This document shows positions 35,567 to 54,920 of a stretch of DNA of 64,000 bases, in pieces. The notes under the pieces are model-generated. The model did not search any database. It was not told the DNA's origin and saw only the letters and a program-made list of their open reading frames with translations. The stretch comes from an uncultured Clostridia bacterium. GTDB taxonomy: Bacteria > Bacillota > Clostridia > Monoglobales > Monoglobaceae. The first letter of the stretch is position 1, and every line of letters starts with the position of its first letter. Position numbers and translations under genes: made by a program. The DNA is taken from positions 1 to 64,000 of the forward strand of contig CANQQJ010000012.1 of assembly GCA_947625905.1 (NCBI GenBank). Direction: 5' to 3'.

Positions 35567-35567
35567 G

Positions 35568-35622
35568 CCTCGCCCCTTGGGGAGAGGTGGATTTCCGCCT
35601 GCGGCGGAAAGACGGAGAGGGG
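35568..35622. repeat. Family B element, copy 5, supplying a ribosome-binding site
   Basis: CCCC-TT-GGGG, then the central hairpin TTTCCGCC-TGC-GGCGGAAA (35592-35610), then GACGGAGAGGGG. This last arm sits 6-17 bp before the ATG at 35628 and is the only Shine-Dalgarno-like sequence for the sua5-ywlE fusion. Confidence 0.85.
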
Positions 35623-35627
35623 TCATA

Positions 35628-37587: not shown

Positions 37588-37588
37588 T

Positions 37589-38605: not shown

Positions 38606-38664
38606 AATTCGGCGCGCGGTATTGTGCAAAACACATAAACCAAGCATAAAATTTTAATTTATTA

Positions 38665-38693
38665 TTGACGATTTATATAATTTATGATATTAT
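38665..38693 (+). promoter_or_regulatory. Promoter of the GltD-like gene
   Basis: TTGACG at 38665-38670, 17-bp spacer, TATTAT at 38688-38693, followed by GGAGGTG before the ATG at 38727. Confidence 0.75.
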
Positions 38694-38726
38694 ATTTTTG
38701 CGTATTTAAAAATCGGAGGTGTTTTT

Positions 38727-39950: not shown

Positions 39951-39965
39951 ATTTGACAACAATTC

Positions 39966-39991
39966 AAAAAGCGGCTTTCGGGCCGCTTTTT
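39966..39991 (+). terminator. Intrinsic terminator after GltD-like gene
   Basis: The stem AAAAAGCGGC / GCCGCTTTTT (39966-39975 with 39982-39991) encloses the loop TTTCGG and ends in T residues. Confidence 0.9.
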
Positions 39992-40037
39992 GTCGTTTTT
40001 TGCCATATTAACAATTTATGAATATTTCCTTTTTCGA

Positions 40038-40066
40038 TTGACTGTTATTGGAAAAAATGCTATAAT
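40038..40066 (+). promoter_or_regulatory. Promoter of citrate synthase gene
   Basis: TTGACT at 40038-40043, 17-bp spacer, TATAAT at 40061-40066; the ATG is at 40108. Confidence 0.88.
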
Positions 40067-40107
40067 TTAGGTATGTTTATCAAGTTTTTCGAAAAAGGGG
40101 GATTTAT

Positions 40108-41463
40108 ATGAAAAGGTTGTCCGTGATTTCTCCGGAAGTGTATGAGCTTTCAAAAAAGTGCGTGGAAATATGCAGGATCGACCCGTCGCTTTACGCCAAG
40201 TACGACGTCAAGCGCGGGCTCAGGGACCTTGACGGAAAGGGCGTTCTGACGGGCCTTACCGAGATCTCGGAGATAATTTCGAATAAAACGATCGACGGAA
40301 AAAAAGTCCAGTGCGACGGCGAGCTGTACTACAGGGGCTATAATATAATAGATATCGTGAAGAACTTAAAAGGGCGCAGGTTCGGCTTTGAGGAGACCGT
40401 CTACCTGCTTTTGTTCGGCGCTCTTCCGAGCAAGACCGAGCTTAAAGCGTTTTTGGCGCTGCTTTCCGAATACCGCAAGCTGCCCACCAGCTTTGTGCGC
40501 GACATTATATTAAAGGCGCCCAGCAGCGACATGATGAACACGCTCCAGCGCAGCGTGCTGACACTGTTTGCTTATGACGAAAAAGCCAACGACACGTCTA
40601 TCCCAAATGTGCTGCGCCAGTGCCTTCAGCTGATCGCGCTGTTCCCGCTGTTCTCGGTGTACGGCTATCAGGCCTATAACCATTACTACGCGGGCAACAG
40701 TCTGTTTATACATCAGCCCGTTTCGAGCTATTCGACGGCCGAGAACATTCTGCACTGCCTGAGACCCGACGGCAGATTCACCAAGATCGAGGCCGCGATC
40801 CTCGACATCGCGCTGATTCTGCACGCGGAGCACGGCGGAGGAAACAATTCGACCTTCACCGACCATGTGGTGACCAGCTCGGGCACCGATACATACTCGG
40901 TCATCGCGGCGGCGCTGGGCTCCCTCAAGGGTCCCAAGCACGGCGGAGCCAACATAAAAGTCGTTGAAATGTTTGAGAATATCAAGGCGAATATTTCCGA
41001 CTGGAGCGACGAGGACGAGATAAGAGAGTATCTGCGCCGAATGTTAAACGGCGAGGTGAACGACAAGAGCGGCCTCATATACGGCATGGGCCATGCGGTA
41101 TACTCGGTATCCGACCCGAGAGCCAAGGTGTTCAGCTCGTTTGTCGAGCGGCTTTCCGAGGAAAAGGGACGCGCCGAGGAATACAAACTCTACGCGATGA
41201 TAGAGCGGCTTGCGCCCGAGGTGATCGCCGAGAAGCGTAAGATATACAAGGGCGTCAGCGCCAATGTGGATTTCTACAGCGGCTTTGTTTACAAAATGCT
41301 CGATCTGCCGAACGAACTGTTCACTCCGATATTCGCCGTGGCGAGGATAGCGGGCTGGAGCGCCCACCGCCTGGAGGAGCTGATAAACGCGGGCAAGATA
41401 ATAAGGCCGTCCTACAAAAACGTCGCCGCCCGCCGCGAATACATAGAGTTCGACAAAAGATAA
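40108..41463 (+). CDS. Citrate (Si)-synthase family enzyme
   Basis: A 451-residue citrate/2-methylcitrate synthase condensing oxaloacetate with acetyl-CoA (or propionyl-CoA). The catalytic residues are visible: first His in LILHAEHGGGNNSTF, second His in GSLKGPKHGGANIKV, and Asp in VSANVDFYSGFVYKML. ELYYRGYNIIDIVKNL is the family's N-terminal block. It has its own promoter. In an anaerobe with pta-ackA it most likely feeds 2-oxoglutarate/glutamate synthesis, which fits the GltD-like flavoprotein just upstream; that link is inferred. Repeats A and B follow the stop codon. Confidence 0.95.
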   Translation: MKRLSVISPEVYELSKKCVEICRIDPSLYAKYDVKRGLRDLDGKGVLTGLTEISEIISNKTIDGKKVQCDGELYYRGYNIIDIVKNLKGRRFGFEETVYLLLFGALPSKTELKAFLALLSEYRKLPTSFVRDIILKAPSSDMMNTLQRSVLTLFAYDEKANDTSIPNVLRQCLQLIALFPLFSVYGYQAYNHYYAGNSLFIHQPVSSYSTAENILHCLRPDGRFTKIEAAILDIALILHAEHGGGNNSTFTDHVVTSSGTDTYSVIAAALGSLKGPKHGGANIKVVEMFENIKANISDWSDEDEIREYLRRMLNGEVNDKSGLIYGMGHAVYSVSDPRAKVFSSFVERLSEEKGRAEEYKLYAMIERLAPEVIAEKRKIYKGVSANVDFYSGFVYKMLDLPNELFTPIFAVARIAGWSAHRLEELINAGKIIRPSYKNVAARREYIEFDKR

Positions 41464-41479
41464 CCGGCAAATTTAAAAC

Positions 41480-41555
41480 GGGACGCCGAGGTCGTCGTCC
41501 CCTACGACCATAATACGCAAAAAACTGTAGGGGCGGACGACCTCGGCCGCCCGCC
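41480..41555 (+). repeat. Family A element, copy 2
   Basis: GGGACGCCGAGGTCGTCGTCCCCTAC, split as two arms GGGACG/CGTCCC, then a spacer and GTAGGGGCGG..CCGCCCG. Its palindromic stems differ from copy 1 but still pair. Confidence 0.83.
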
Positions 41556-41559
41556 AGAC

Positions 41560-41603
41560 TCGCCCCTTGGGGAGAGCTGTCAGCGCAGCTGACTGAGAGG
41601 GGT
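41560..41603. repeat. Family B element, copy 6
   Basis: CCCC-TT-GGGG followed by the central hairpin GTCAGC-GCA-GCTGAC (41579-41593) and GAGAGGGG. It directly follows family A copy 2. Confidence 0.85.
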
Positions 41604-41665
41604 GGCCTAGTCCCTAGTCCCTGCGTTGGCTGATGGGAATTATAAAATAAATTCCCAAAAAATCC

Positions 41666-41694
41666 TTGACATTCACATTTGTGTGTAATAAAAT
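41666..41694 (+). promoter_or_regulatory. Promoter of rubrerythrin gene
   Basis: TTGACA at 41666-41671, 17-bp spacer, TAAAAT at 41689-41694. The region between is AT-rich; no clear PerR or Fur box could be assigned. Confidence 0.7.
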
Positions 41695-41799
41695 ATAAAC
41701 AATGATGATTGCCCCTTCGGCGCTGTGAATTGTGCCGGTTCGGGCAAGACGCGGCGGTGCCGCGCAAAAAATCTAAATTTTATATGGAGGTAATTTATT

Positions 41800-42342
41800 A
41801 TGAAAAAATGGGTATGCGGTGTATGCGGATATATTTATGAAGGCGAGTCGGCTCCCGAGCAATGTCCTCAGTGCAAGGCTCCCGCGAGCGCTTTTAAGCC
41901 GCAGGAAGGCGGCCTTTCGTGGGCATGCGAGCACGTTATCGGAATCGCCAAGGACGTTGACCCCAGAGTTATCGAGGGCCTCAAGGCAAACTTCACGGGC
42001 GAGTGCACCGAGGTAGGTATGTATCTGGCAATGGCGAGACAGGCGATCCGCGAGGGTTATCCCGAGATAGGCGCGTTCTATCAGCAAGCGGCCTATGAGG
42101 AAGCCGAGCACGCGGCCAAGTTCGCCGAGCTGCTGGGCGAGGTCGTATATCCCGACACCAAGAAGAATCTGCAGCTGAGAGCCGAGGCCGAGTGCGGCGC
42201 GACGGCGGGCAAGCTGGAGCTGGCGAAGCTGGCCAAAGAGCTGAACTATGACGCTATCCACGACACCGTTCACGAGATGGCCAAGGACGAAGCAAGACAC
42301 GGCTGCGGCTTTGAAGGACTGCTCAAGAGATATTTCGGATAA
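41800..42342 (+). CDS. Rubrerythrin with N-terminal rubredoxin domain (reverse rubrerythrin)
   Basis: A 180-residue peroxide-scavenging non-haem iron protein. The rubredoxin iron site is Cys6, Cys9, Cys22 and Cys25 (CGVC and CPQC) at the N-terminus, reversed from classical rubrerythrin. The ferritin-like diiron domain follows with the ligands in [38 protein letters not shown] and [11 protein letters not shown]. It uses electrons from NADH via rubredoxin partners to reduce hydrogen peroxide in anaerobes. The ATG follows TGGAGG. It is monocistronic with a terminator. Confidence 0.96.
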
Positions 42343-42350
42343 TTTTACAT

Positions 42351-42382
42351 AATGCGGTCGGCAAACGCCGGCCGCATTTTTT
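42351..42382 (+). terminator. Intrinsic terminator after rubrerythrin
   Basis: A 12-bp stem (42351-42362 with 42367-42378, one G-T pair) with loop AAAC is followed by T residues. Confidence 0.92.
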
Positions 42383-42723
42383 CGCGCGCAAAGGCGCGTG
42401 TTTCCGTGCTTGATTAATATTTATTTCGATATATGGCAAAAAAACAAAGAAAAGACAAAAAATCCAACCATCTGTCAAAATTCATGTAAAAAATTGTCAT
42501 TGCGATATATAGTAATTATCCCGTAAAAACGATTGCTGCTGGGCTTTAAGAAAATTTTGATACAATAAATATAGACAAAAATTGCTCAAAAATTCCGATT
42601 GAAAAATTTTTGCTTTAGATTACAGGAAATTTTACTCCGTGTTGAGAAACGCTTGAATTATTACGGGCGATATATTATTATTATTTTAGAAAAGTTTTTT
42701 TATTCTCAAGGAGGTTTTTTGTT
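42383..42723. other. Long AT-rich upstream region of the first pectate lyase
   Basis: About 340 bp without a gene. A candidate promoter is TTGAAT (42653-42658), 17-bp spacer, TATTAT (42676-42681), giving a leader of about 35 nt before the ATG at 42724. Farther upstream are AT-rich tracts that could hold regulator sites; I could not assign any. AAGGAGG precedes the start. Confidence 0.5.
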
Positions 42724-45700
42724 ATGTTTGGATCAAGAGCGTTAAAAAAATCCGCCGCGATGTTAATAAGCGTCGCGATGACAGTGACCATGCTTGCGGG
42801 TCTGACAATGACAAGCGTATCCGCGGCGGACGGAGAGACGATCTATAATATGTCCGCGTTGGAGACGATGCCCGATAAGGACGCGGCGAAAAACGGCACA
42901 ACGATATTTGGCGGCGCTGTCGGTTTTAAAGCTGATGAAGAGCCAAAACCCGGTGAAACGGATATTTCGATTATGACGCCGGGAGGATCAATACTGAGTT
43001 TCACACAATCTTTGCGCGTTAAGAGACCTATTTTGACTTTTGATGTCAAGGCGGGAGAAACGATCGTGGCTTATTACAGAGGCTGTGACTCAAAGGGCAG
43101 CGCGAAACTCATCAGCATGGCGATAAGTAATCCGTCGGGATCTGTCGTTGCAACCGAAACCAATGCCGAAAACGACAAGGCATCCGATTGCTATACGATC
43201 TCGTGCAAAGCTGATACCGACGGTAAGTATACCGTGGCCAACGCGGCTGATTCACCCACGAATCGTACCGATATATACGCGATAGTTATTACGCCGTATG
43301 AATATCGCGATCCCGGTTCGGCGGAACCTTTACCTCCGGCTGAGATCGGCGCGTTTACGGCCGAGCCGGGCGACGGCATGGTTACTCTCTCGTGGGACCC
43401 GGTTCCCGGCGCCGAATTTTATAATGTGTATGTAAACGACGACGAGGTTGAGAGCGGAACAACTAACACGTCATATGTTGCAGCGGGCCTTCAGAACGGC
43501 ACGCAGTATACATTTAAGCTCGAAGCCGTGAACACAACCGGAAAAACCGATAAAACTATCACTGCGGCGCCGACGGCTCCCACAGTCAAACCCGAGAGCT
43601 TCACGCTCAGCGGAAGCGCCAGAGACAAGGAAGTCGGTCTGTACTGGACAGCGGCGCGCTACGCGAAAACATATAACGTAATGAGGGGAACCGAAACGAT
43701 CGCAACCGGTCTTTCCGCCGCGACGCTCAGTTACCGCGACGCAGGTCTTACAAACGGCACGGAGTATACGTATAAAGTCGTGGCGGTCAATGACAACGGC
43801 ACCACCGATTCAAACGAGATAAAAGTGACCCCGGTTGAGCCGCCCCCGTCCGAAATAAAAATACCCGAGGATCATCCCGCTGTCGGCTGGCTTGAATCCG
43901 CGAATGTGATCTGGACAAATCCCGCCGAGGTTGACGGATATAACGTGTATCTGGTTTCAAGTGACGGCGCGGAGACAAAGCTTGACAACGAGTTGATCCG
44001 TTATTACGGAGGTTATTACAGAGCCGACGCGATAGGAGTTAAGCCGGGCGAATATTATTTTAAGATCGAAAACGCCGGAAATCATGATGATTTTGTTTTA
44101 TCAAACACATTCACCGTGCAGAAACATGTCAGGGAGGGCTTTGCCTTTGACCCCGCGTCTTCAAAATACGGAGCTTACGACGCCGAAGGCATCGGAGCGT
44201 ATAAAAACGACGGAACTCTTAAAGACGGCGCGCAAGTGCTCTATATTGACGACAAAAACAAGGACACTGTCACGCTTACCGTCAAGGTTGACGGCAAAGA
44301 CAACGTGGGCGTAGGTTTGGGAAATATTTTGGCCCTCAGAGAAAAGAACGGCGCAGAGCCCACACCTCTTGATATTCGTCTGATCGGTCAGATCGAAAAG
44401 CCGGCAGGCTCCGACAGTATGGGTTATATCAATGTCAAAAAATGCAGAAATATAACTATTGAAGGCGTGGGCGACGACGCGGTCGCTTATCATTGGTCTC
44501 TCCTGCTTAGAGAGGCGAAAAACGTTGAAGTAAGAAATCTGGCCGTTATGGAGTTCTATGATGACGGTATTTCTCTGGATACCAAAAACTACAACTGCTG
44601 GATCCACAACTGCGATATATTCTACGGTCAATACAGAGGCGGCGACCAGAAGAAGGGCGACGGTTCTCTGGACGTTAAGTCGGGCTCCGACTACTGCACG
44701 TTCTCGTATAACCATTTCTGGGACAGCGGCAAATCATCGCTTTGCGGAATGAAGAGCGACTCGTTCCAGGGTTACCACATGACGTATCATCACAACTGGT
44801 TCGACCATTCCGATTCGCGCCATCCGAGGATCAGAGGCGATCAGGTGCATATTTACAACAACTACTACGACGGAAATTCCAAGTACGGCGTGGGCGTCTG
44901 CACCGGCGGCAGCGCTTTTGTCGAAAAGAACGTGTTCAGAAACGTAAAATATCCCATGCTTATCGCCCTGCAGGGCAGCGATATTCACGGCGAAAATCAG
45001 ACGACGTTTTCGGGCGAGACCGGAGGAATGATAAAGGCGTTTGACAATGATATCAGAAGAGGCAGTCAGTCGCAGACCTTCTTTACTCAAAATGAACCCG
45101 ACGGAGATTCCAATAATGTTGACGCCTATGTGGCCAGCAGCAGAGATGAGATCGTTCCGGAGACATTTACGGCGGTGGCAGACGGCAGCAAATACAGTAA
45201 TTTCGACACTGCCGCCGATATGTATGATTATGATCCCGACGATGTGAATCAGGTTGTCGCGCTGGTGGAAGCGTACGCGGGCAGAGTTCAGGGCGGCGAC
45301 TTCAAATATGACTTTAACGATGAAACAGATGACGCGAGCTATGACCGCAGCCCCGAGCTTGGCGACAAATTGGCGTCTTATAAGACAACGCTCGGATACA
45401 GCTACACATCACCCGCGTCTTATCCGGCAACGGACGGCTCGGCTGTTGAACCCGGCCCCACGGCGCCGACTATCCCGACGCCCGGCCCCACGCTGAAGCC
45501 CGGCGAGAAGCCGACTCCCGCGCCCACGCCGACCCCGACCAAGGCACCCGTAATGGCCGGCCCCGTTATGTGGGACTTCGGCAAGGCTCCGTTCACTGTG
45601 ACGGAAGAAGGAAACGTTCATCCCGACACCGATTATTTTACAGCCGGAAAGACTTCGAGCTCAGGCGCCATGCAGTATAACATAAAGAGCGATTCGATCA

Positions 45701-46350
45701 CTCCGGAGGTATTCGGAGGACTTAAGCTGACGACCTCGGGCGTGCTTGAAAATAAGTATCAAAAATCAGACGCGTCCTTCTCTGACGGCTTTAAGGGCAC
45801 TTGGCAGATCAAGACGAAAACGGCATTCAGCTTTATTCCGGCGCTTAGGGGCACGGTGACGATATACGCGCGCCACGGCAGCACAGACGGTACAAAGCCG
45901 GACGACACCGTCACTGTTAAGCAGGGCGGAGAGAACATAGGAACTCATGTTTATAAGCCCGGAAAGTTTGACACATACGAGCCCTTCACGGTCGATGTCG
46001 CGGCAGGAGAAAAAGTTGAGATCGCGGGAAGCGAGGAGACCGGATACTACGCTGTTTTGTACAAGGCAAACGGATATAACATCGAGTCCGTCGAGCAAAA
46101 CGGCGACAGTCTTGACGTAACTGTGACATACGGCGAGAGCGATACGCCTCCCGCGGGCGTGATGCTTGCCGCGAAGTGCGACGCGGCAGGAGCGCTGAAA
46201 GACTTCGCGGAAGGCGGCGCGGTAAGCGGACCCGGCAAGTATACCATAAACGGACTTAAGCTCGACCCGGGCGAAACGTTAAAGGTGTTCATTTGGAACA
46301 GCTTGACCGATATGGCTCCGCTCGCGGCTCCGTTTGAAAAAAGTAATTAA
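42724..46350 (+). CDS. Large secreted multidomain pectate lyase (PL1-type)
   Basis: A 1208-residue exported protein. Signal peptide to about residue 34; a beta-rich N-terminal domain (about 37-200); two fibronectin III domains (about 210-290 and 292-378); a module with LIRYYGGYYRADAIGV that is also present in the lyase at 60805; then a PL1-type parallel beta-helix (about 480-860) with DDGISLDTKNYNCWIHNCDIF, GDGSLDVKSGSDYCTFSYN, HHNWFDHSDSRHPRIRGD and VHIYNNYYDGNSKYGVGV. A Pro/Thr linker (about 910-945), a second beta-rich domain and a C-terminal domain ending LKVFIWNSLTDMAPLAAPFE follow. It cleaves polygalacturonan by beta-elimination outside the cell. No dockerin or SLH anchor is seen. Confidence 0.92.
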   Translation: MFGSRALKKSAAMLISVAMTVTMLAGLTMTSVSAADGETIYNMSALETMPDKDAAKNGTTIFGGAVGFKADEEPKPGETDISIMTPGGSILSFTQSLRVKRPILTFDVKAGETIVAYYRGCDSKGSAKLISMAISNPSGSVVATETNAENDKASDCYTISCKADTDGKYTVANAADSPTNRTDIYAIVITPYEYRDPGSAEPLPPAEIGAFTAEPGDGMVTLSWDPVPGAEFYNVYVNDDEVESGTTNTSYVAAGLQNGTQYTFKLEAVNTTGKTDKTITAAPTAPTVKPESFTLSGSARDKEVGLYWTAARYAKTYNVMRGTETIATGLSAATLSYRDAGLTNGTEYTYKVVAVNDNGTTDSNEIKVTPVEPPPSEIKIPEDHPAVGWLESANVIWTNPAEVDGYNVYLVSSDGAETKLDNELIRYYGGYYRADAIGVKPGEYYFKIENAGNHDDFVLSNTFTVQKHVREGFAFDPASSKYGAYDAEGIGAYKNDGTLKDGAQVLYIDDKNKDTVTLTVKVDGKDNVGVGLGNILALREKNGAEPTPLDIRLIGQIEKPAGSDSMGYINVKKCRNITIEGVGDDAVAYHWSLLLREAKNVEVRNLAVMEFYDDGISLDTKNYNCWIHNCDIFYGQYRGGDQKKGDGSLDVKSGSDYCTFSYNHFWDSGKSSLCGMKSDSFQGYHMTYHHNWFDHSDSRHPRIRGDQVHIYNNYYDGNSKYGVGVCTGGSAFVEKNVFRNVKYPMLIALQGSDIHGENQTTFSGETGGMIKAFDNDIRRGSQSQTFFTQNEPDGDSNNVDAYVASSRDEIVPETFTAVADGSKYSNFDTAADMYDYDPDDVNQVVALVEAYAGRVQGGDFKYDFNDETDDASYDRSPELGDKLASYKTTLGYSYTSPASYPATDGSAVEPGPTAPTIPTPGPTLKPGEKPTPAPTPTPTKAPVMAGPVMWDFGKAPFTVTEEGNVHPDTDYFTAGKTSSSGAMQYNIKSDSITPEVFGGLKLTTSGVLENKYQKSDASFSDGFKGTWQIKTKTAFSFIPALRGTVTIYARHGSTDGTKPDDTVTVKQGGENIGTHVYKPGKFDTYEPFTVDVAAGEKVEIAGSEETGYYAVLYKANGYNIESVEQNGDSLDVTVTYGESDTPPAGVMLAAKCDAAGALKDFAEGGAVSGPGKYTINGLKLDPGETLKVFIWNSLTDMAPLAAPFEKSN

Positions 46351-46399
46351 TCCGATATTGTTTAACAAGCTGTACAAACAATAAGATTTCTTTTCGGAA

Positions 46400-46433
46400 G
46401 CGGCGGGTCATCGGCCCGCCGCTCCGCTTTTCA
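46400..46433 (+). terminator. Intrinsic terminator after pectate lyase
   Basis: The stem GCGGCGGG / CCCGCCGC (46400-46407 with 46415-46422) is followed by TCCGCTTTTC. Confidence 0.75.
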
Positions 46434-46470
46434 CGGGTTAAAATATTTGTATAATTTGCCAAAATTTCTC

Positions 46471-46499
46471 TTGAAATGGCGCTGTCCCTGATGTATAAT
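46471..46499 (+). promoter_or_regulatory. Promoter of pta-ackA
   Basis: TTGAAA at 46471-46476, 17-bp spacer, TATAAT at 46494-46499. The leader to the pta ATG (46581) is about 75 nt and AT-rich. Confidence 0.85.
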
Positions 46500-46580
46500 A
46501 TTTAAAGGAATAACTCTATGTTGTTTTTTAAAACCGCAAAATAATAAACAAAAAATACATTACGAAACGAGGTTAAGCAA

Positions 46581-47576
46581 ATGTCAAAATTCATGGAAAC
46601 AATCAAAGCTAAGGCTAAGGCCGATTTAAAGACCATAGTGCTGGCCGAAGGCGAGGAGCAGAGAACGATCGACGCCGCGGCTCAGGTCCTGAGCGAGGGC
46701 TATGCGAAGGTCATCCTGCTGGGCGATCCCGAGGTCATCAAGTCAAAGGCCGCAAACGTTGACATCTCCGCCGCGGAGATAATCGACCCCAAGGCAAGCG
46801 ACATGGCTCCCGAGCTGGCAAACGGCCTGTACGAGCTGAGAAAGCACAAAGGCATGACCCCCGAGCAGGCGGCCGAGCTTATCAAGGACGTGCTGTATTT
46901 CGGATGCATGCTGGTGAAGACCGGAAAGGCCGACGGCATGGTAGCCGGAGCGGTACACGCCACGGCGGACGTTATGCGCTCTGCGCTCCAGACCATCAAG
47001 ACCGCGCCCGGCACAAAGGTCGTGTCCGCGTTCTTCCTGATGCTGGTTCCCGACTGCGAGTACGGAAACAACGGCACGTTCGTGTTCTCCGACTGCGGCC
47101 TCAACGAGTATCCCGATTCCGAGAAGCTTGCCGAGATCGCCATGTCGTCTGCCAAGTCCTATAAGGCTCTGGTCGGCGACGAGCCCAGAGTAGCCATGCT
47201 GTCATACTCGACCTACGGCAGCGCCAAGTCCGAGCAGGTAGATCTGGTCAGAAACGCGGCGGATATCGCGAAGGCGGCGGCTCCCGATTTGAAGCTCGAC
47301 GGCGAGCTCCAGCTGGACGCGGCTATCGTTCCGAGCGTTGCGGCGCTCAAGGCCCCCGAGAGCAAAGTCGCGGGCAAGGCCAACGTTCTCATATTCCCCA
47401 ACCTTGACGCGGGCAACATCGGCTACAAGCTGACCCAGAGACTGGCGAAGGCCGAGGCATACGGCCCCATGACCCAGGGTATGGCGAGACCGGTCAACGA
47501 TCTGTCCAGAGGCTGCAGCGCCGAGGATATCGCGGGCGTTGTCGCTATCACAAGCGTTCAGGCGCAGAACATGTAA
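46581..47576 (+). CDS. pta: Phosphate acetyltransferase
   Basis: A 331-residue enzyme that converts acetyl-CoA and phosphate to acetyl phosphate. Features: TIVLAEGEEQRTIDAAAQVLSEG, KTGKADGMVAGAVHATADVMRSALQ, VSAFFLMLVPDCEYGNNGTFVFSDCGLNEYP, MLSYSTYGSAKSEQ, and VLIFPNLDAGNIGYKLTQR. This is the short form without the N-terminal regulatory domains of enterobacterial Pta. It is followed at 39 bp by ackA, the standard acetate and ATP-generating pair. Confidence 0.98.
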   Translation: MSKFMETIKAKAKADLKTIVLAEGEEQRTIDAAAQVLSEGYAKVILLGDPEVIKSKAANVDISAAEIIDPKASDMAPELANGLYELRKHKGMTPEQAAELIKDVLYFGCMLVKTGKADGMVAGAVHATADVMRSALQTIKTAPGTKVVSAFFLMLVPDCEYGNNGTFVFSDCGLNEYPDSEKLAEIAMSSAKSYKALVGDEPRVAMLSYSTYGSAKSEQVDLVRNAADIAKAAAPDLKLDGELQLDAAIVPSVAALKAPESKVAGKANVLIFPNLDAGNIGYKLTQRLAKAEAYGPMTQGMARPVNDLSRGCSAEDIAGVVAITSVQAQNM

Positions 47577-47615
47577 TTTATCAAAAATATTTAAAATTTA
47601 TCGGAGGGTTTACAT

Positions 47616-48809
47616 ATGAAAGTATTAGTTATAAACGCGGGCAGCTCGTCTCTTAAGTATCAGCTTATCGAGACCGACACCGAGGAAGTTCTGGCAAAAG
47701 GTCTCTGCGAGAGAATAGGCCTTGACGGCTCAAAGCTTACCCACTCGCCCGAGAACAAGGACGAGTATGTCAAAGAGCAGGCCATGCCCACTCACACGAC
47801 CGCCGTTCAGCTGGTTCTTGAGGCTCTTGTCGACCCCGATCACGGCGTTATCGAGCATATCGACGAGATCTCGGCAGTCGGCCACAGAGTTCTCCACGCG
47901 GGCCAGGTCTACAGCGACTCGGTAATAGTCAACGACGACGTTAAGAGAGTTATAAAAGAGTGCTTCCCGCTCGGTCCTCTGCACAATCCCGCGAACCTTA
48001 TCGGTATCGAAGCGTGCGAGGAAGCAATGCCCGGCAAGCCGCAGGCAGCCGTGTTCGACACCGCCTTCGGCCAGAGCATGAGCCCCAAGGCGTATATGTA
48101 CGCGATACCCTATAAGTTCTACGAGAAGTACGGTATTCGCAAGTACGGATTCCACGGCACCAGCCACAAGTTCGTTTCGGGCAGGACCATTGAGTTTGCC
48201 GATCTTGACAAGAGCTCCTGCAAGGTCATTGTGTGCCACCTGGGCAACGGCGCCAGCATTTCGGCCTCGATCGGCGGCAAGTGCGTCGACACCAGCATGG
48301 GCCTCACGCCTCTTGAGGGCCTTATCATGGGCACCAGAAGCGGCGATATAGACGCGGCCGTTGTGCAGTTCCTTGCCAACAACGAGAACATCAGCGTCGA
48401 CGAGGTGCTGAACATACTCAATAAGGAATCGGGCGTTTTGGGCATTTCGGGCGTTTCCAGCGATTTCCGCGATCTCACCGCGGCCGCAGAGGGCGGCAAT
48501 GAGAGAGCGCAGGTCGCGCTTGACGCGTTTATCTACAGAGTAGCCAAGTACATCGGCTCATATGTGGCTGCTATGAACGGCGTTGACGCGATAGCCTTCA
48601 CGGGCGGAATCGGCGAGAACGACTGCGCGACCCGCGGCAGGATCTGCGAGTATCTGGGTTACTTGGGCGTCAGCATAGACCCCGAAAACAACTCAAAGCG
48701 CGGCGAGGAGATGTATATCTCAACTCCCGACTCAAAGGTAAAAGTCATGGTTATCCCCACCAATGAGGAATTGGCCATAGCGAGAGAGACATTGGCGCTT
48801 GTAAAATAA
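47616..48809 (+). CDS. ackA: Acetate kinase
   Basis: A 397-residue ASKHA-fold kinase that makes ATP and acetate from acetyl phosphate. Features: VLVINAGSSSLKYQLI at the N-terminus, AVGHRVLHAGQVYSDSVIV, VFDTAFGQSMSPKAYMYAIP, YGFHGTSHKFVSGR, VCHLGNGASISAS, DTSMGLTPLEGLIMGTRSGDID and FTGGIGENDCATR. Length and motif order are standard. The ATG follows CGGAGGG. Repeats follow the stop codon and lead to the sigma factor gene. Confidence 0.98.
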   Translation: MKVLVINAGSSSLKYQLIETDTEEVLAKGLCERIGLDGSKLTHSPENKDEYVKEQAMPTHTTAVQLVLEALVDPDHGVIEHIDEISAVGHRVLHAGQVYSDSVIVNDDVKRVIKECFPLGPLHNPANLIGIEACEEAMPGKPQAAVFDTAFGQSMSPKAYMYAIPYKFYEKYGIRKYGFHGTSHKFVSGRTIEFADLDKSSCKVIVCHLGNGASISASIGGKCVDTSMGLTPLEGLIMGTRSGDIDAAVVQFLANNENISVDEVLNILNKESGVLGISGVSSDFRDLTAAAEGGNERAQVALDAFIYRVAKYIGSYVAAMNGVDAIAFTGGIGENDCATRGRICEYLGYLGVSIDPENNSKRGEEMYISTPDSKVKVMVIPTNEELAIARETLALVK

Positions 48810-48844
48810 GATAATTTCAACGGGCGGCCGAATCGGCCGCCCGT

Positions 48845-48915
48845 GGGACGTCGAGGGCGCCGTCCCCTACAACTAAATTAAATATAATATCGTAGGGGCG
48901 GCAACCTACCGCCCG
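48845..48915 (+). repeat. Family A element, copy 3
   Basis: GGGACGTCGAGGGCGCCGTCCC (arms GGGACG/CGTCCC) with CTAC, an AT-rich spacer, then GTAGGGGCGG..CCGCCCG. It starts 35 bp after the ackA stop and is followed by a family B element. Confidence 0.85.
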
Positions 48916-48918
48916 CTT

Positions 48919-48970
48919 GCCTCGCCCTCCGGGGAGGGAGAGGTGCCCGCTTGCGGGCGGAGAGGGAGGC
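48919..48970. repeat. Family B element, copy 7, supplying a ribosome-binding site
   Basis: A CCTCC-GGGGAGG arm pair, the central hairpin GCCCGC-TT-GCGGGC (48945-48958), then GGAGAGGGAGGCG. The last GGAGG (48965-48969) is the only Shine-Dalgarno-like sequence before the sigma factor ATG at 48984. Confidence 0.83.
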
Positions 48971-48983
48971 GAAATTAATTCGC

Positions 48984-49577
48984 ATGAACTACCAAAACTA
49001 TACCGACGAGGAACTGGCGGCGCGCGCCAAAACCGACCGCGCTGCGGCCGACTTCCTTTTAAACAAATACAAAAACATGGTCCGCGCCCGCGCGAAGGCG
49101 TATTTCCTGGCAGGAGGCGACAGCGACGATCTGGTACAGGAGGGCATGATCGGCCTGTTCCGCGCCATCGGCGACTTCGACCCGCGCAAAGAGGCGTCAT
49201 TCTCAAGCTTTGCCGAGCTCTGCGTTCGGCGCCAGATATACACCGCCATCAAATCGGCGGGGCGGCAGAAGCATATCCCGCTCAACAATTACGTGTCGCT
49301 AAACAAGCCCATAGACGGCGAGAAGTCCGACATCACGCTGTCTGACACTATCCCGGGGCCCGTGCTGCTCGACCCCGAGAATTTGTATATCAGGAACGAA
49401 AATCTGAGGGATATCGAGCGGGAGATAGAAGAAAAGCTCAGCGACCTTGAAAAGCGCGTGCTGATCCTGCATCTTCAGGGCATGTCATACGGCGAGATCG
49501 CGGAAATAATCAACAAGCCCGCCAAGTCGATAGACAACGCGCTGCAAAGAATAAAAAAGAAGCTGGACGAAAGTTAG
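48984..49577 (+). CDS. RNA polymerase sigma factor, SigH (Spo0H)-like
   Basis: A 197-residue sigma-70 family protein. Region 2 reads DDLVQEGMIGLFRAIGDFDPRKEASFSSFAELCVRRQIYTAIKSA; region 4 reads LSDLEKRVLILHLQGMSYGEIAEIINKPAKSIDNALQRIKKKL. Both match the early-sporulation sigma factor SigH more than SigA or SigE/F/G. ATG 48984 has GGAGG 14 bases upstream, provided by a repeat element; that is a long spacing, so translation may be weak. It is alone here, not in the usual rpmG-secE-nusG neighbourhood of SigH, so it might be an SigH paralogue. Confidence 0.88.
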   Translation: MNYQNYTDEELAARAKTDRAAADFLLNKYKNMVRARAKAYFLAGGDSDDLVQEGMIGLFRAIGDFDPRKEASFSSFAELCVRRQIYTAIKSAGRQKHIPLNNYVSLNKPIDGEKSDITLSDTIPGPVLLDPENLYIRNENLRDIEREIEEKLSDLEKRVLILHLQGMSYGEIAEIINKPAKSIDNALQRIKKKLDES

Positions 49578-49731
49578 TAACCGTTCGGCTTTTTGTTTGC
49601 AAAATATCTGTAATTTTATACTAAATTCGGTCTAAAATAAGAAAAAAATTCCAATCACAAAAATTAAAAAATGTCAAGGGGTAATTTAAAAATTATTAAA
49701 ATTCAAATACAATTGTGTTAAGCGAATATTA

Positions 49732-49846
49732 TTTTCCACCGCCCGAAATCGCCGTAAAATAAGTTATCAACAGAGTTATACACTTTTTCCACCGTTTTTT
49801 AAGTGTAAAAACTGTCAAAAATCAGATTTTTAAAAAGTTATCCACA
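49732..49846 (+). other. Cluster of DnaA-box-like 9-mers
   Basis: TTATCCACA at 49838-49846 is a perfect match to the DnaA-box consensus. TTATCAACA (49764-49772) and TTATACACT (49776-49784) each differ at one position; TTTTCCACC occurs at 49732-49740 and 49785-49793 (two differences). All are in the same orientation, next to an AT-rich stretch. This may titrate DnaA or modulate nearby transcription; no dnaA, dnaN or other origin gene is adjacent. Confidence 0.55.
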
Positions 49847-50011
49847 ATTAACGTTTTCACGCCGTTTCGGAGAATTTGTTAAACTTGAGTCAATTCGTCA
49901 CGCTCTTTCGTTTATGCCGAGTCCGAAAAATACATCCCGAATTTTACAGAAATTTTGTCATTATAGAACGAGACGCCGGGCCGTCATAGTAATTAACGAA
50001 TAGCGGTTAGA

Positions 50012-50127
50012 CACCTCATCAGTCAGACTTAGTCTGACAGCTTCCCCTCAAGGGGAAGCCTATTTTTGCTTTCCCTTTGAGGGGAAGGTGGGTTTTTGCC
50101 CATTCGGGCAAAAAGTCGGATGAGGTG
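50012..50127. repeat. Family B elements, copies 8a and 8b, facing each other
   Basis: Copy 8a (50012-50060): central hairpin GTCAGA-CTTAG-TCTGAC and CTTCCCCT/AGGGGAAG. Copy 8b (50070-50127): TTCCC..GGGGAA arms and the hairpin TTTTTGCCC-ATTC-GGGCAAAAA (50093-50114). The outer ends ACCTCATC and GATGAGGT are inverted repeats of each other, so the whole 116 bp looks like one larger palindromic unit. Confidence 0.8.
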
Positions 50128-50173
50128 GAAACGCAGTGATAAGCTATTAGCAAATATTAATTAGGATCTCGGT

Positions 50174-50235
50174 GTAGGGCGGCACGCCCGCTTGCCTCCT
50201 CCCGGGAGGAGGTGGCTGCGGTATGCCCGCATCCG
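50174..50235. repeat. Decayed family A fragment followed by family B element, copy 9
   Basis: GTAGGGCGGCACGCCCGC (50174-50191) is a shortened family A palindrome. It is followed by CCTCCTCCC/GGGAGGAGG and the small hairpin TGCGG-TATGC-CCGCA (50217-50231). It shows the same A-then-B order as at 35495, 41480 and 48845. Confidence 0.7.
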
Positions 50236-50339
50236 GCCCTGCGACATTTTCATCCATCTGCCGTGCGCCCGCGACCTTGGCCTCCCCTACGGCTAATTTA
50301 TATTTTCAAAATAAATTGCGAATAATATAAAAAATATTC

Positions 50340-50391
50340 TTGACATATACCGGATGGGGGTATATAATATAAATATACCCATCAGGGGTAT
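50340..50391 (+). promoter_or_regulatory. csoR-copA promoter with two CsoR-type operators
   Basis: TTGACA (50340-50345), 17-bp spacer, TATAAT (50363-50368). A 17-bp pseudo-palindrome ATACC-GGATGGG-GGTAT fills the spacer (50347-50363), and a second, ATACC-CATCAGG-GGTAT, follows the -10 (50375-50391). Both have the AT-ACC/GGT-AT shape with a G/C tract that CsoR proteins recognise, so copper-free CsoR should block polymerase binding and copper should relieve it. Confidence 0.85.
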
Positions 50392-50408
50392 GTTAAAGGA
50401 GTGATATT

Positions 50409-50702
50409 ATGTGCGAATGCTGTCACAAGACAAAAAAGCGGACCGAGGAAGAATACAAGAGCCTGACGAATCGCTTAAGCCGCATCGAGGGTCAGATCCG
50501 CGGAATAAAGGGCATGGTCGAGCGCGACGCTTACTGCCCTGACATTCTTATACAGGTGTCCGCCGTCACGGCGGCGCTTAACGCGTTTAACAAGGAGCTG
50601 CTTTCAAGCCATATAAGGACCTGCGTGGCGGACGATATCAGAGACGGCAAGGATGAGATAATAGACGAGCTTGTCGCGACTTTGCAAAAGCTTATGAAAT
50701 AG
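50409..50702 (+). CDS. csoR: CsoR family copper-sensing repressor
   Basis: A 97-residue all-helical DNA-binding protein. The Cu(I)-binding triad of the family is present with standard spacing: Cys43 (AYCPD), His68 and Cys72 (SHIRTC). RLSRIEGQIRGIKGMVERD is the family's helix 1 signature. The additional N-terminal CECCH cluster may help bind metal. It is followed at 12 bp by copA and controls this operon through the two operators upstream. Related family members sense nickel or sulfide, but the operon content fits copper. Confidence 0.95.
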   Translation: MCECCHKTKKRTEEEYKSLTNRLSRIEGQIRGIKGMVERDAYCPDILIQVSAVTAALNAFNKELLSSHIRTCVADDIRDGKDEIIDELVATLQKLMK

Positions 50703-50714
50703 AGGTGAGATGAT

Positions 50715-53411
50715 TTGGAGCAATATAACGTTACCGGAATGAGCTGCGCGGCGTGCAGCGCGCGGGTCGAAAAGGCGGTGCTGAAGGTGGAAGGCGTCAG
50801 TTCGTGCTCGGTCAGCCTGCTTACAAACTCGATGGGCGTCGAGGGGACCGCGCGGCCGGGCGACGTAATCGCGGCGGTCAAGGCCGCGGGCTACGGTGCC
50901 TCGCTCAAGGGCGCGGAGACAAAAGCGGACGCCCAAAGTGCGGATGAGGACGCGTCGACGGCGGATTTTAAGACGCTCAGAGCGCGGCTCATATCCTCGC
51001 TGGGTTTTTTGATCGTGCTTATGTATATCTCGATGGGGCACATGATGTGGAATTGGCCTTTGCCCGCGTTTCTCGCCGAGAACCATGTGGCGATGGGACT
51101 CACCCAGCTGCTTTTGACCGAGATAATCATGATAATAAACGGAAAGTTTTTCATAAGCGGATTCAGGGGCCTGCTCCGCGGCGCGCCGAATATGGACACC
51201 CTCGTTGCGCTGGGCGCGGGCGCGTCGTTCGCTTACAGCACATACGCGCTGTTCGCCATGACCGCGGCGCAGAATGTCATGGACCATGCCGCCGTGATGA
51301 GTTATATGCACGAGTTCTATTTTGAGTCGGCGGCGATGATACTGACGCTTATAACCGTGGGCAAAATGCTTGAGGCGCGCTCCAAGGGCAAGACGACCGA
51401 CGCGCTAAAGGGGCTTATGAAGCTGGCGCCGAAGACGGCGGTAGTGCTGCGCGGAGATACCGAGACCGAGGTCGCGATCGAGAGCGTAAATATCGGCGAC
51501 ATATTTATTGTGCGTCCGGGCTCGAGCGTTCCGGTTGACGGTGTGGTGATCGAGGGCGGAGGAGCGGTCGACGAGTCCGCGCTGACCGGAGAGAGCATAC
51601 CGGTCGACAAAAACGCGGGCGACACGATCTCGGCCGCGACTATCAGCGGCTCGGGATTTTTAAAATGCCGAGCGACCCGGGTCGGCGAGGACACGACTCT
51701 CTCGCAGATAATAAAAATGGTGAGCGACGCGGCGGCCACCAAGGCGCCCATCGCAAAAGCGGCCGACAAGGTATCGGGCGTTTTCGTGCCCGTGGTTATC
51801 ACGATCGCGGTTATTGTGACTTTGATATGGCTGATCGCGGGATACGGCGCGGGCTTCGCGCTGGCAAGGGGGATATCGGTACTGGTTATCAGCTGTCCGT
51901 GCGCGCTGGGCCTCGCCACGCCCGTTGCCATAATGGTCGGAAACGGAGTCGGCGCGAGATGCGGCATACTGTTCAAAACCGCCGTGTCGCTTGAAAACGC
52001 CGGAAAGGCGGCGGTCGCGGCGCTCGACAAGACGGGCACCATAACCAAAGGCGAGCCCCGCGTCACCGACATAATACCGTCGGGAGGGGCGGCGGAGGAA
52101 GAGCTGCTGACGTTTGCCTGCTCCCTTGAGTCGGGCAGCGAGCACCCGCTGTCAAAGGCCGTGATCACGCGCGGAAAAGAAATCGGCATAAAGCCTTTTG
52201 ACGTTCAAAATTTCAGAGCGCTGCCGGGACGCGGGCTTACGGCGGAGCGCGGCGGCAAAGTGCTGCGCGGCGGAAATCTTGAGTATATAGGCAAAAATGC
52301 GTCGGTTCCCGACAGCGCGGCAAAGGCCGCGGCGGAGCTTTCCGAGCGGGGCAAAACGCCGCTGTTTTTTGCGGAGGACGACAGGCTGCTGGGTATCATC
52401 GCTGTGGCGGATGTCATAAAAGAGGACAGTCCGTCGGCAATACGCGAGCTCCGCGATATGGGTATCGAGGTCGTGATGCTGACCGGAGACAACGAGAAAA
52501 CGGCCAATGCCATAGGCGCGCAGGCCGGCGTCAGCCGAGTTATCGCGGGCGTGCTGCCCGACGGCAAGGAGGCGGCGATTCGCGAGCTTAAAAAATCGGG
52601 CAGGGTGATAATGGTAGGCGACGGCATCAACGACGCTCCGGCGCTCACCGCGGCAGACACGGGAATCGCCATCGGCGCGGGGACCGACGTCGCCATAGAC
52701 GCGGCGGACGTCGTGCTGATGAACAGCAGACTTTCAGACGTTCCGGCGGCCGTCAAGCTGAGCCGCGCCACGCTGAGAAACATACACGAAAATCTGTTCT
52801 GGGCGTTTATCTACAACATAATCGGCATACCGTTGGCGGCGGGCGCGCTGATACCGCTGTTCGGGCTCAAGCTCAATCCGATGTTTGCGGCGGCGGCCAT
52901 GAGCCTTTCGAGCTTTTGCGTCGTCAGCAACGCGCTCAGGCTGAATTTTGTGAAGATAAAAAAGAGCGCGCAAAGCCCGCGGGACGTTGTAGGGGCGGAT
53001 ATCATCCGCCCTAGGGACGTCGAGGGCGCCGTCCCCTACGATCATAATACACAAAACGCCGTAGGGGCGGATATCATCCGCCCGCGGGACGTCGAGGGCG
53101 CCGTCCCCTACAATCATAATATGCAAAATGCTGTAGGGGCGAATATCATAAGCCCGCAAACTTCGGATTTGAAAAATAAAAATAATAATAAAAAGGAGTT
53201 AAAAACTATGGAAAAAACAATTAAAATCGAAGGCATGATGTGCCCCCACTGCGAGGCGACGGTAAAAACCGCGCTTGAGGAGCTGCCGGGCGTTGAGTCC
53301 GCGGTCGCCAGCCACACGGCGGGCACGGCGGTAGTGACCCTGAGTTCCGACGTTTCCGACGATGTGCTCAGGCAGACGGTCGAGGCCAAAGGCTACAAGG
53401 TGGTAGCGTAA
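50715..53411 (+). CDS. copA: Copper-exporting P1B-type ATPase joined in frame to a CopZ-like domain
   Basis: An 898-residue open frame. Residues 1-757 are a CopA: N-terminal metal-binding GMSCAACSARVEKAV, membrane CPC at 394-396 (SCPCALGLATP), phosphorylated DKTGT from 438, ATP-binding HP in GSEHPLSKAV, TGDN and GDGINDAPAL, and the last helix motif MSLSSFCVVSNALRLN. From residue 759 the frame runs through two 24-residue units (VGADIIRPRDVEGAVPY...) encoded by tandem 72-bp repeats, a partial third unit and an Asn/Lys-rich linker. Residues 832-898 are a CopZ-like metallochaperone. The start is TTG 50715 with AGAGGTGA. The repeat has removed or never allowed a stop between the two proteins. Cu(I) export from the cytoplasm is the expected role. 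Confidence 0.9.
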   Translation: MEQYNVTGMSCAACSARVEKAVLKVEGVSSCSVSLLTNSMGVEGTARPGDVIAAVKAAGYGASLKGAETKADAQSADEDASTADFKTLRARLISSLGFLIVLMYISMGHMMWNWPLPAFLAENHVAMGLTQLLLTEIIMIINGKFFISGFRGLLRGAPNMDTLVALGAGASFAYSTYALFAMTAAQNVMDHAAVMSYMHEFYFESAAMILTLITVGKMLEARSKGKTTDALKGLMKLAPKTAVVLRGDTETEVAIESVNIGDIFIVRPGSSVPVDGVVIEGGGAVDESALTGESIPVDKNAGDTISAATISGSGFLKCRATRVGEDTTLSQIIKMVSDAAATKAPIAKAADKVSGVFVPVVITIAVIVTLIWLIAGYGAGFALARGISVLVISCPCALGLATPVAIMVGNGVGARCGILFKTAVSLENAGKAAVAALDKTGTITKGEPRVTDIIPSGGAAEEELLTFACSLESGSEHPLSKAVITRGKEIGIKPFDVQNFRALPGRGLTAERGGKVLRGGNLEYIGKNASVPDSAAKAAAELSERGKTPLFFAEDDRLLGIIAVADVIKEDSPSAIRELRDMGIEVVMLTGDNEKTANAIGAQAGVSRVIAGVLPDGKEAAIRELKKSGRVIMVGDGINDAPALTAADTGIAIGAGTDVAIDAADVVLMNSRLSDVPAAVKLSRATLRNIHENLFWAFIYNIIGIPLAAGALIPLFGLKLNPMFAAAAMSLSSFCVVSNALRLNFVKIKKSAQSPRDVVGADIIRPRDVEGAVPYDHNTQNAVGADIIRPRDVEGAVPYNHNMQNAVGANIISPQTSDLKNKNNNKKELKTMEKTIKIEGMMCPHCEATVKTALEELPGVESAVASHTAGTAVVTLSSDVSDDVLRQTVEAKGYKVVA
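52989..53156 (+). repeat. Tandem family A repeat, 72-bp units, inside the copA-copZ frame
   Basis: Unit 1 is 52989-53060, unit 2 is 53061-53132 and a partial unit 3 is 53133-53156. Each begins GTAGGGGCGGATATCATCCG and contains the GGGACG..CGTCCC palindrome. The period of 72 is a multiple of three and the units contain no stop in this frame, so the repeat is translated as 24-residue units. Confidence 0.93.
53208..53411 (+). CDS. copZ: CopZ-like copper metallochaperone (internal start in the copA frame)
   Basis: A 67-residue heavy-metal-associated domain starting MEKTIKIEGMMCPHCEATV, with the Cu-binding CxxC. It has its own Shine-Dalgarno AAAAGGAGTT (53191-53200) seven bases before ATG 53208. 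A separate CopZ is therefore likely made even if the ribosome also reads through from copA. Such domains hand Cu(I) to CopA and CsoR. The annotated span is nested in frame inside the copA open frame. Confidence 0.9.
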   Translation: MEKTIKIEGMMCPHCEATVKTALEELPGVESAVASHTAGTAVVTLSSDVSDDVLRQTVEAKGYKVVA

Positions 53412-53424
53412 CATTAGGCGAACA

Positions 53425-53460
53425 AGCCGCCCCTTCCCAAACGTAGGGGCGGCTGTTTTG
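53425..53460. terminator. Terminator between copZ and the convergent histidine kinase
   Basis: A 10-bp stem AGCCGCCCCT / AGGGGCGGCT (53425-53434 with 53445-53454) is followed by GTTTTGTC. Its right arm GTAGGGGCGG matches the family A repeat, so a repeat fragment may have been adopted as terminator. Confidence 0.8.
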
Positions 53461-53462
53461 TC

Positions 53463-54920
53463 TTATTCTTTTGTTTCTTTGTTTTTTGCTTTGGGCTCTT
53501 TGCCGCGGTCGAGGCTGAACGTGAACCTCGCGTACTCGCCCTCAACGCTGTCGACCTTTATGTCTTTTCCGTGGGCCGCCAGCATACTCTGCACGATGTA
53601 CAGCCCGATACCGGTGCCCTCTTTGTTGATGGCGCGCGACTTGTCCACCTTATACAGACGCTCGAAAATGATCTTCTGCTGCTCGGCGGGGATGCCCACG
53701 CCGGTGTTGTGGACAGAGATCCAGATCTCGCCGCCCTTTGGATGGGTCTCGATAGTGATCTTGCCCTTGTCATAGGTGAACTTTATCGCGTTGTCGATAA
53801 GGTTGGTGAGGACCATTTTGATCTTGTCCGCGTCGGCTCGCACAAAGCTAACGTCGCGGTCGAATATCAGATTTATGTCAAGGTCCTTCGCGTCAATTTT
53901 ATTGCCGAGCCCGATGATGATAAGTCTGATAGTCTCGTTGATGTCAAAATTCGACATGGTGAGGTTGACCTTGTCGGACTGCATTCGGGTTATGTCAAGG
54001 AAGGTATTGACCAGCCGCGTCAGGCGCGTCACCTCGTCTTTGACGATTTTTAGATATGAGCTCTGCTTTTCGGGCGGGATCGTCCCGTCCAGAATTCCGT
54101 CTACAAAGCCGCCTATGGTCGTCATGGGAGTCCTGAGCTCGTGCGACACGTCGGATATAAAGCTCATGCGCACGTCCTCCGAGCGCTCTATCGCGTCGGC
54201 CATGTTGTTAAAGCTGTCCGCCAGCTCGGTGAGCTCCTCAACGCTCTCGTCGAATCTGTCGATCTCGACCCTCGATTTCATGTTGCCGCTCGCGAATTCC
54301 TTGACGCTTGTGCTTACGCGCTTTATCGGGTTCGCGAGGATCTTTGACAGCATGTACGACAGGACAAACGACACGATGATAACCACGAGCGCCGAGAACA
54401 GCAGTATTTTGAACATCTCGTTGATCGTGCTGCGCCTCTGCGGCATCGGCGTGCTTATCAGCACCGAGCCGAACACCTTGTTCTTGTCGCTGCTCATGAT
54501 CGGTACTTCAAGGGTGAACATTGTCTCGTTGAAGGCTCCGCTCATGGTGCCGATCGAGGTCGTCCGCTTGCCGGTGAGTACCTCGTGCAGCTCGTCGGTC
54601 GGTATGGATCTTTCCCTGCCCGACCAGTAGCCGCTGTCGGCGGTGTTAACGAGCATAGTGCCGTCCGAGTCGGTGATTATTATATGGCTGCTGCTGCTCC
54701 GCGAAAAGCCTGTCAGAACCGACGACAGACTCTCCTGCGATATGCCGTTGTTGATAAGGCTCACGATCGAGTCGGCGTTCTTGCTTATGTTGTTCTCTAT
54801 CTGCTTGGAAATAAAGTTGTTCACCAGCACCATCTGCAGCGACGCGAGTATGATTATTCCGATAAGCACCGTCGCCAGATTGGTGAAAAGCACGCGGGAA
54901 AATATGTTTTTTCCGAACAA
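53463..54920 (-). CDS. Membrane sensor histidine kinase
   Basis: A 485-residue sensor kinase: first membrane helix at about 10-31, an extracytoplasmic domain, second helix at about 170-193, a HAMP linker, the phosphoacceptor His in SFISDVSHELRTPMTTIGGF (about residue 260), and the ATPase with NLIDNAIKFTYDKG, ISVHNTGVGIPAEQQ and KEGTGIGLYIVQSM. The start TTG 54920 directly follows the response-regulator stop (TGATTG), with GAGGTGA as ribosome site. The signal is unknown; it lies beside but convergent to the copper operon, and no shared control is implied. It resembles PhoR/ResE-type kinases. Confidence 0.93.
   Translation of the reverse strand: MFGKNIFSRVLFTNLATVLIGIIILASLQMVLVNNFISKQIENNISKNADSIVSLINNGISQESLSSVLTGFSRSSSSHIIITDSDGTMLVNTADSGYWSGRERSIPTDELHEVLTGKRTTSIGTMSGAFNETMFTLEVPIMSSDKNKVFGSVLISTPMPQRRSTINEMFKILLFSALVVIIVSFVLSYMLSKILANPIKRVSTSVKEFASGNMKSRVEIDRFDESVEELTELADSFNNMADAIERSEDVRMSFISDVSHELRTPMTTIGGFVDGILDGTIPPEKQSSYLKIVKDEVTRLTRLVNTFLDITRMQSDKVNLTMSNFDINETIRLIIIGLGNKIDAKDLDINLIFDRDVSFVRADADKIKMVLTNLIDNAIKFTYDKGKITIETHPKGGEIWISVHNTGVGIPAEQQKIIFERLYKVDKSRAINKEGTGIGLYIVQSMLAAHGKDIKVDSVEGEYARFTFSLDRGKEPKAKNKETKE

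Follow-up and report, generated by a model that had tools for sequence, protein, structure and literature searches.

Evidence for an old CopA-CopZ fusion gene in Clostridia with a conserved internal start for CopZ and a dispersed palindromic repeat in its linker

The window analysed here is a 64,000-nucleotide stretch of DNA from an uncultured Clostridia bacterium of the Monoglobaceae (contig CANQQJ010000012.1 of assembly GCA_947625905.1, positions 1 to 64,000, forward strand), and its subject is a gene in which the P-type ATPase CopA and the chaperone-like protein CopZ share one reading frame. Translation of the open reading frame (ORF) bore out the original prediction that copA runs without a stop through a repeat and into CopZ, giving a single frame of 898 codons (50715-53411, plus strand) that begins with TTG, with GAGGTGA just upstream. 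The same start-calling rule also gave TTG as the copA start in two congeners (genomes G002 and G005). Directly upstream lies csoR, encoding a copper-sensing repressor (50409-50702, plus strand; Pfam Trns_repr_metal, 4.5e-31); 12 nt separate its stop codon from the start of copA. Pfam placed two HMA stretches, E1-E2_ATPase and Hydrolase on the fusion, the N-terminal HMA domain occupying 50724-50894 (plus strand) in the HMA domain search. The hallmarks of P1B-1 CopA proteins are an N-terminal HMA domain with CxxC, and CPC, DKTGT, HP and GDGIND; the translation carries GMSCAAC, SCPCALG, DKTGT, SEHPL and GDGIND, as well as what we take to be the YN and MxxSS signatures of helices 7 and 8. These motifs and the neighbouring csoR point to Cu(I) as the transported ion.

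The end of the CopA core (NALRL) is separated from CopZ by a linker of 88 codons (52944-53207, plus strand), a region whose length is hypervariable among relatives (13-118 aa over 102 loci). It holds the predicted 72-bp tandem repeat (52989-53157, plus strand), which Tandem Repeats Finder reported with period 72, 2.3 copies, 89% matches and a score of 268, the two other tandem arrays of the window scoring only 56 and 50. Each unit consists of a 51-nt palindromic dispersed element and a 21-nt spacer; the period is exact, the unit sequences are not identical, and the array is translated as VGADIIRPRDVEGAVPY. Beyond it, also as predicted, CopZ has its own Shine-Dalgarno sequence, AAGGAG (53193-53198, plus strand; conserved among relatives), 9 nt before an ATG at 53208. 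The nested copZ (53208-53411, plus strand) comprises 67 aa, fusion residues 832-898 (MEKTIKIEGMMCPHC), and by Pfam and translation it has an HMA domain (5.4e-17) with the CxxC motif GMMCPHC.

The fusion is widespread among related genes. In a first set of 110 loci with a CopA ORF (L009-L118), CopZ was in frame with CopA in 105, the exceptions being L013 (contig end), L027, L035, L036 and L038. A second set of 101 loci (L155-L255) came from 291 genomes sampled from the class, of which 247 had a match; 21 loci were given by the search and 80 were fetched from the listed matches, strongest first. By the pattern used, which misses L244 and L246, 81 of these 101 were fused. An initial regex sorting of 114 loci classed 90 as fused, placed a separate CopZ downstream in 10 and found none in 14; it missed the C-terminal HMA domains of L175, L209, L244 and L246, which are seen in their tails and which the tree counts as fused. 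In that FastTree tree of 129 CopA cores (rows drawn strongest match first; the cut loci L013 and L023 left out), the window's clade comprised 74 rows (support 99), 72 of them fused and two, L027 and L228, unfused. This proportion is less biased than 105/110, where part of the loci were ranked by their match to a fused query. It is also a fairer figure than the count of linker stops (0 observed versus about 253 expected from composition in 102 first-set loci), because the latter is conditioned on loci having been called fused. Over the whole tree the fused/unfused label changed 10 times, with seven changes forced by starred branches, and fusion or separation therefore occurred several times outside the window's clade. 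The same fused gene occurs in a spirochaete, Treponema porcinum, with 63% identity (L100, NZ_FUWG01000009.1), suggesting horizontal transfer.

A start codon immediately preceded the CopZ domain in 103 of 105 fused loci of the first set (101 ATG and 2 GTG, the latter in sister genomes) and in 78 of 81 of the second (75 ATG, 1 GTG and 2 TTG). The strict Shine-Dalgarno word, defined as AGGAG or GGAGG within 20 nt upstream of the start, occurred at 91 of 103 and 59 of 78 of these sites, compared with 37.5 and 15.35 expected from synonymous codon shuffles of each locus. One second-set site duplicates a first-set site, and overall the word was found in 143 of 174 distinct 27-mers. Predicted binding to the 16S tail was better than the average of a locus's own shuffles in 95/103 loci (Wilcoxon p 3e-16), and 72/78 loci of the second set likewise beat theirs (p 9e-14). 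Spacing was nearly fixed, with GGAG ending 9 nt before the start in 72/103. At codon -4, glutamate was encoded by GAG rather than GAA in a ratio of 81:9 versus 39:90 in the rest of the linker (second set, 45 and 5 versus 26 and 77; Fisher 1.2e-14), and the strict word was retained where GGA (Gly) replaced Glu at this codon in 3/103 and 10/78 loci. Among controls, internal CopA Met codons were preceded by the word in just 55/2856 and 32/1892 cases in the two sets. Of 20 internal HMA-HMA junctions fetched from CopA proteins with two HMA domains, 19 were usable; start and word occurred together in 0/19, and the same rule gave a start codon in 3/19, none of them ATG. In the window itself, AAGGAG is unpaired in a 70-nt fold (53178-53247). 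Together, these comparisons show conservation of the start and the Shine-Dalgarno sequence beyond codon choice, a pattern that looks like selection on the nucleotides. Separately, L239 encodes a CopA with two successive C-terminal HMA domains and has an ATG only before the last.

We also asked where else CopZ-type domains are encoded. At the search threshold, the window's own genome contained three HMA domains, namely the two that flank the CopA core and a third within a different P-type ATPase. Of the genomes with the fusion, 0/16 had a stand-alone HMA ORF scoring at least 45 bits, versus 9/15 of those with an unfused CopA (Fisher 2.5e-4). This table rests on 40 genomes sorted by hand, the assignment of unfused G048 being doubtful and nine genomes without a clear CopA being excluded; the nine include G016 and G042, both of which possess HMA ORFs of that strength. 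In isolates, plasmid records carry the fusion as one gene of 842 aa (Ruminococcus albus 7), 844 aa (Roseburia sp. 831b) and 924 aa (Butyrivibrio fibrisolvens D1). The annotation in all three records is heavy metal translocating P-type ATPase, next to a metal-sensing repressor, and copZ is not among their listed features. A Subdoligranulum variabile plasmid holds a fused gene of 867 aa, unannotated. The junction of the cultured R. albus 7 reads AAGGAGGATAATACA-ATG, and the strict word is present in the fused genes of R. albus and Subdoligranulum. Three isolates (L286-L288) have the fused gene on a large plasmid, adjoining a metal-sensing repressor, and pRUMAL02 is typed as conjugative.

We consider it highly probable that this is an old bifunctional gene of Clostridia whose products are a CopA-CopZ fusion and a free CopZ made by internal initiation, with the repeat as a later passenger. 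The original suggestion that both products arise from this gene is thus supported by comparative evidence, that is, by conservation of the start and word and by the controls. Ribosomes starting at the copA start (TTG in the window) would pass through the open linker into CopZ and produce a pump with a tethered C-terminal chaperone domain. Others would initiate internally at the conserved Shine-Dalgarno sequence and ATG and produce the free 67-aa CopZ, which would carry Cu(I) to the pump. Production of both proteins, their ratio and the chaperone function are what we infer from sequence, and in the window free CopZ may be more abundant than the fusion, because copA has TTG whereas the nested copZ has ATG and AAGGAG. 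The linker is polar and, judging from its composition and variability, probably disordered. Should ribosomes use the nested start, the chaperone will have escaped notice because such genes are annotated as a single large ATPase, examples being those of R. albus, Roseburia and Butyrivibrio, and the proposal is directly testable in culturable strains.

Several observations weigh against internal initiation. The start is missing in L058 and L079 (2/105) and in L185, L195 and, at its first C-terminal HMA domain, L239 (3/81). The strict word is missing in 12/103 and 19/78 loci, including the TTG locus L202 and 8 of the 18 second-set loci whose codon -4 is GGA, and in two of the four isolates (Roseburia 831b and B. 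fibrisolvens). Individual loci frequently fall short of significance (median p 0.24 in the synonymous shuffles), the excess being clear only over the set, and much of the per-locus signal stems from the K/E-rich linker; the word is also present in 6/19 HMA-HMA control junctions, never with a start. The rows are related, so that the counts are not independent events. In a 100-nt fold of the window (53148-53247), GGAGTT pairs weakly with AACTTC (53159-53164), leaving the Shine-Dalgarno sequence partly paired. Finally, the table of stand-alone HMA genes was made by hand with thresholds picked after seeing the data, weak and shorter HMA ORFs (27-39 bits) occur in fused G004, G017, G023 and G050, and unfused G037 falls just under the 45-bit line (44.6).

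The best of the competing explanations, which we nonetheless judge unlikely, is that the fusion alone is made, with the Met and the Shine-Dalgarno-like word either arising incidentally from a K/E-rich linker or surviving from an earlier, separate copZ. A linker of this composition does predict purine-rich DNA; codon choice alone would place the word in 37.5/103 loci, and 6/19 HMA-HMA junctions carry it. However, the word was observed in 91/103 and 59/78, it persists in 13 loci over both sets where Glu became Gly, and start and word never occur together at the HMA-HMA junctions. GTG or TTG replaces ATG in five loci (two of them sister genomes; L202 lacks the word), and a relic start should have decayed in a clade whose linkers are otherwise scrambled. 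Less likely again, and to our minds improbable, is the release of free CopZ by proteolysis of an exposed linker, with the Shine-Dalgarno word acting to pause translation and so aid folding of the membrane part before CopZ emerges. The polar, variable and probably disordered linker and the position of the word at a domain border would both suit this, but a start codon at a nearly constant distance would be superfluous for a pause site. An assembly or sequencing artefact, either a lost stop or a misassembled repeat, seems very improbable even for an assembly of 68 contigs in which repeats can be miscounted. Two relatives with different repeat numbers remain in frame, and the fusion is no metagenome artefact, because isolate plasmid records carry the fused gene; the exact repeat number in the window could be wrong.

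Internal initiation in an old fusion gene is thus our preferred explanation, and comparison across the genus places the repeat within that history. Among 12 genomes of the genus, nine encode CopA and CopZ in one frame, counting G010, in which copA is split over two contigs with the break upstream of the linker. No such CopA was found in G001 and G008, both incomplete genomes, and the CopA of G009 is a different one (43% identity), accompanied by a separate HMA ORF. That HMA ORF in G009 is a 74-codon frame directly downstream (C1:237067-239451), as if the fused gene had been replaced. Linkers measured 88 aa in the window, 118 in G004, 48 in G010, 36 in G002, 30 in G005, 33 in G003, G007 and G011, and 28 in G006. 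The repeat-derived peptide VGA(D/N)II(R/S)P occurs three times in the window, four times in G004 and once in G010, and is absent from the six other congeners compared. The proposed comparison of the junction across relatives therefore found linkers of 28-118 aa and a variable repeat number with the frame kept, as had been anticipated. G002, G005, G003, G007, G011 and G006 are fused at a junction without the repeat, as are congeners at 94% identity (L011, L012), and loss of the stop is not special to the repeat site, because these relatives also lack a stop.

The idea that the repeat spread into a normal copA-copZ junction, deleted the copA stop and so created the fusion retains almost no credence: the repeat indeed sits precisely at the junction and can be read through in the fusion frame, but repeat-less congeners are fused and the fusion is common to the CopA clade and four isolates, which already refutes this part of the original prediction. 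The CopA-CopZ fusion is instead old, and the repeat entered an existing hypervariable linker, where it is polymorphic. In our proposal, the 51-nt dispersed element would have inserted in frame into the linker in certain species of the genus and then expanded, and would have been tolerated because the linker is little constrained except for staying open and keeping the nested ribosome-binding site.

The element itself has the form GTAGGGG...CCCCTAC, and 52989-53040 by itself folds at -28.7 kcal/mol. Dispersed copies in the window lie at 35440-35564, within a mechanical ORF and upstream of that ORF's probable start, and at 41479-41537 and 48837-48914, both probably intergenic (all plus strand). 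The claim that the repeat lies outside genes at 35495, 41480 and 48845 stands insofar as these places look intergenic from the ORFs; mechanical ORFs do overlap each of them, the one at 35495 lying upstream of the ORF's probable ATG. The own assembly (68 contigs, 94% complete) contained 56 matches to the junction, the junction site included and most of them partial, a count that may be a lower bound since 40 of 131 first-look candidates were scored. The core pattern GTAGGGGCGGN7CCGCCC was found in 11 of 60 genomes, comprising 10 of the 12 in the genus (own included) and G041, and a reversed control pattern gave no matches in all 60.

A copy is able to sit in a coding frame because three of the six frames of the copy examined are free of stops and the unit lengths (51, 72 and, in G004, 66 nt or 22 residues) are all multiples of three. 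In the own genome, 63 copy clusters were examined, of which 3 fall within a convincing gene by our reading. Most ORFs over other copies are stop-to-stop frames that precede a probable start, and these were not scored as intragenic. Besides copA, a gene for a DUF927 protein (PF06048; G000:C23:10614-12269, minus strand; locus L127:2612-4273, L256) contains two in-frame matches to the element, of 29 and 40 nt. The own genome thus has three in-frame insertions over two unrelated genes, two of the three being short matches. At the same two places of the DUF927 gene, G010, G004 and G002 have differing repeat-like stretches, and G006 has shorter, unlike ones.

Two known kinds of element were considered and rejected. 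A REP/RAYT system is not indicated in the own genome, where PF01797 (Y1_Tnp) had no matches versus matches in 5 of 14 control genomes, and a known structured RNA was discarded with no Rfam match in window positions 35000-54000 at E up to 1. Elsewhere in the window, a second dispersed repeat family, D7 (GCTGTC...GACTGAGAGGGG), occurs at 3248, 21747, 41576 and 59658, its copy at 41576 adjoining the copA-type repeat at 41480, and a sensor histidine kinase (HAMP, HisKA, HATPase_c) is encoded convergently to copA-copZ at 53463-54920 (minus strand).

Among described repeats, the closest parallel is with Rickettsia palindromic elements, short palindromic repeats that lie in frame in unrelated protein genes (PMC10969869). 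The element of the window's genus appears to sit likewise in frame in two unrelated genes, copA and DUF927, and is likened to them by its placement. The Rickettsia elements are about 150 bp long with nearly half in genes, whereas here a 51-nt core lies within genes in 3 of 63 copy clusters (PMC10969869). In-frame repeats of this kind illustrate that a protein linker can grow through a dispersed element without loss of frame.

With regard to the protein, the fusion resembles P1B-ATPases with C-terminal metal-binding domains, such as Archaeoglobus fulgidus CopA (cited in PMC7558416; presumably the subject of structures 3j08/3j09), in having such domains at both ends of the CopA core. It also resembles separate csoR-copA-copZ operons, which PMC4938975 names for Listeria, in combining the same three functions in the same order. 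Ten unfused relatives have copZ close behind copA. Unlike in such operons, the window gene has no stop between copA and copZ. A survey of CsoR regulons in gut Firmicutes reports csoR and copA and no CopZ-type chaperone, finds a CopZ homologue in just 1 of the 10 most abundant gut Clostridiales genera, and allows that some other regulated HMA proteins might serve as chaperones (PMC4938975). A copZ nested within copA may explain that reported absence. Our literature search, which left most subscription journals uncovered and so does not prove that none has been printed, found no Clostridia report of a CopA-CopZ fusion with an internal start, and none of in-frame palindromic repeats.

The nearest functional counterpart is Escherichia coli copA, whose CopZ-like product is the N-terminal domain of CopA. 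Work on copA/CopA(Z) cited in PMC7558416 and PMC10187127 includes Meydan 2017 (Mol Cell) and Drees 2017 (Mol Microbiol). In E. coli, CopZ is made from copA by frameshifting, and a metallochaperone is said typically to come from a separate gene (PMC10187127). The comparison with E. coli drawn in the original prediction holds in that one gene would yield both a Cu(I)-ATPase and a CopZ-like chaperone (PMC7558416 and PMC10187127, for E. coli). It does not extend to the means: where E. coli uses a frameshift and the N-terminal domain, the window gene has a C-terminal chaperone-like domain in the same frame, with its own Shine-Dalgarno sequence and start, which does not fit an E. coli-type programmed frameshift. 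It seems probable overall that gut Clostridia nest CopZ in copA through a selected internal start, a second, independent and mirror-image solution to that of the E. coli frameshift, and that the genus carries an element inserting in frame into protein linkers much as the Rickettsia palindromic elements do. If true, these would be convergent 'one gene, pump and carrier' designs, reached through two different translation tricks.

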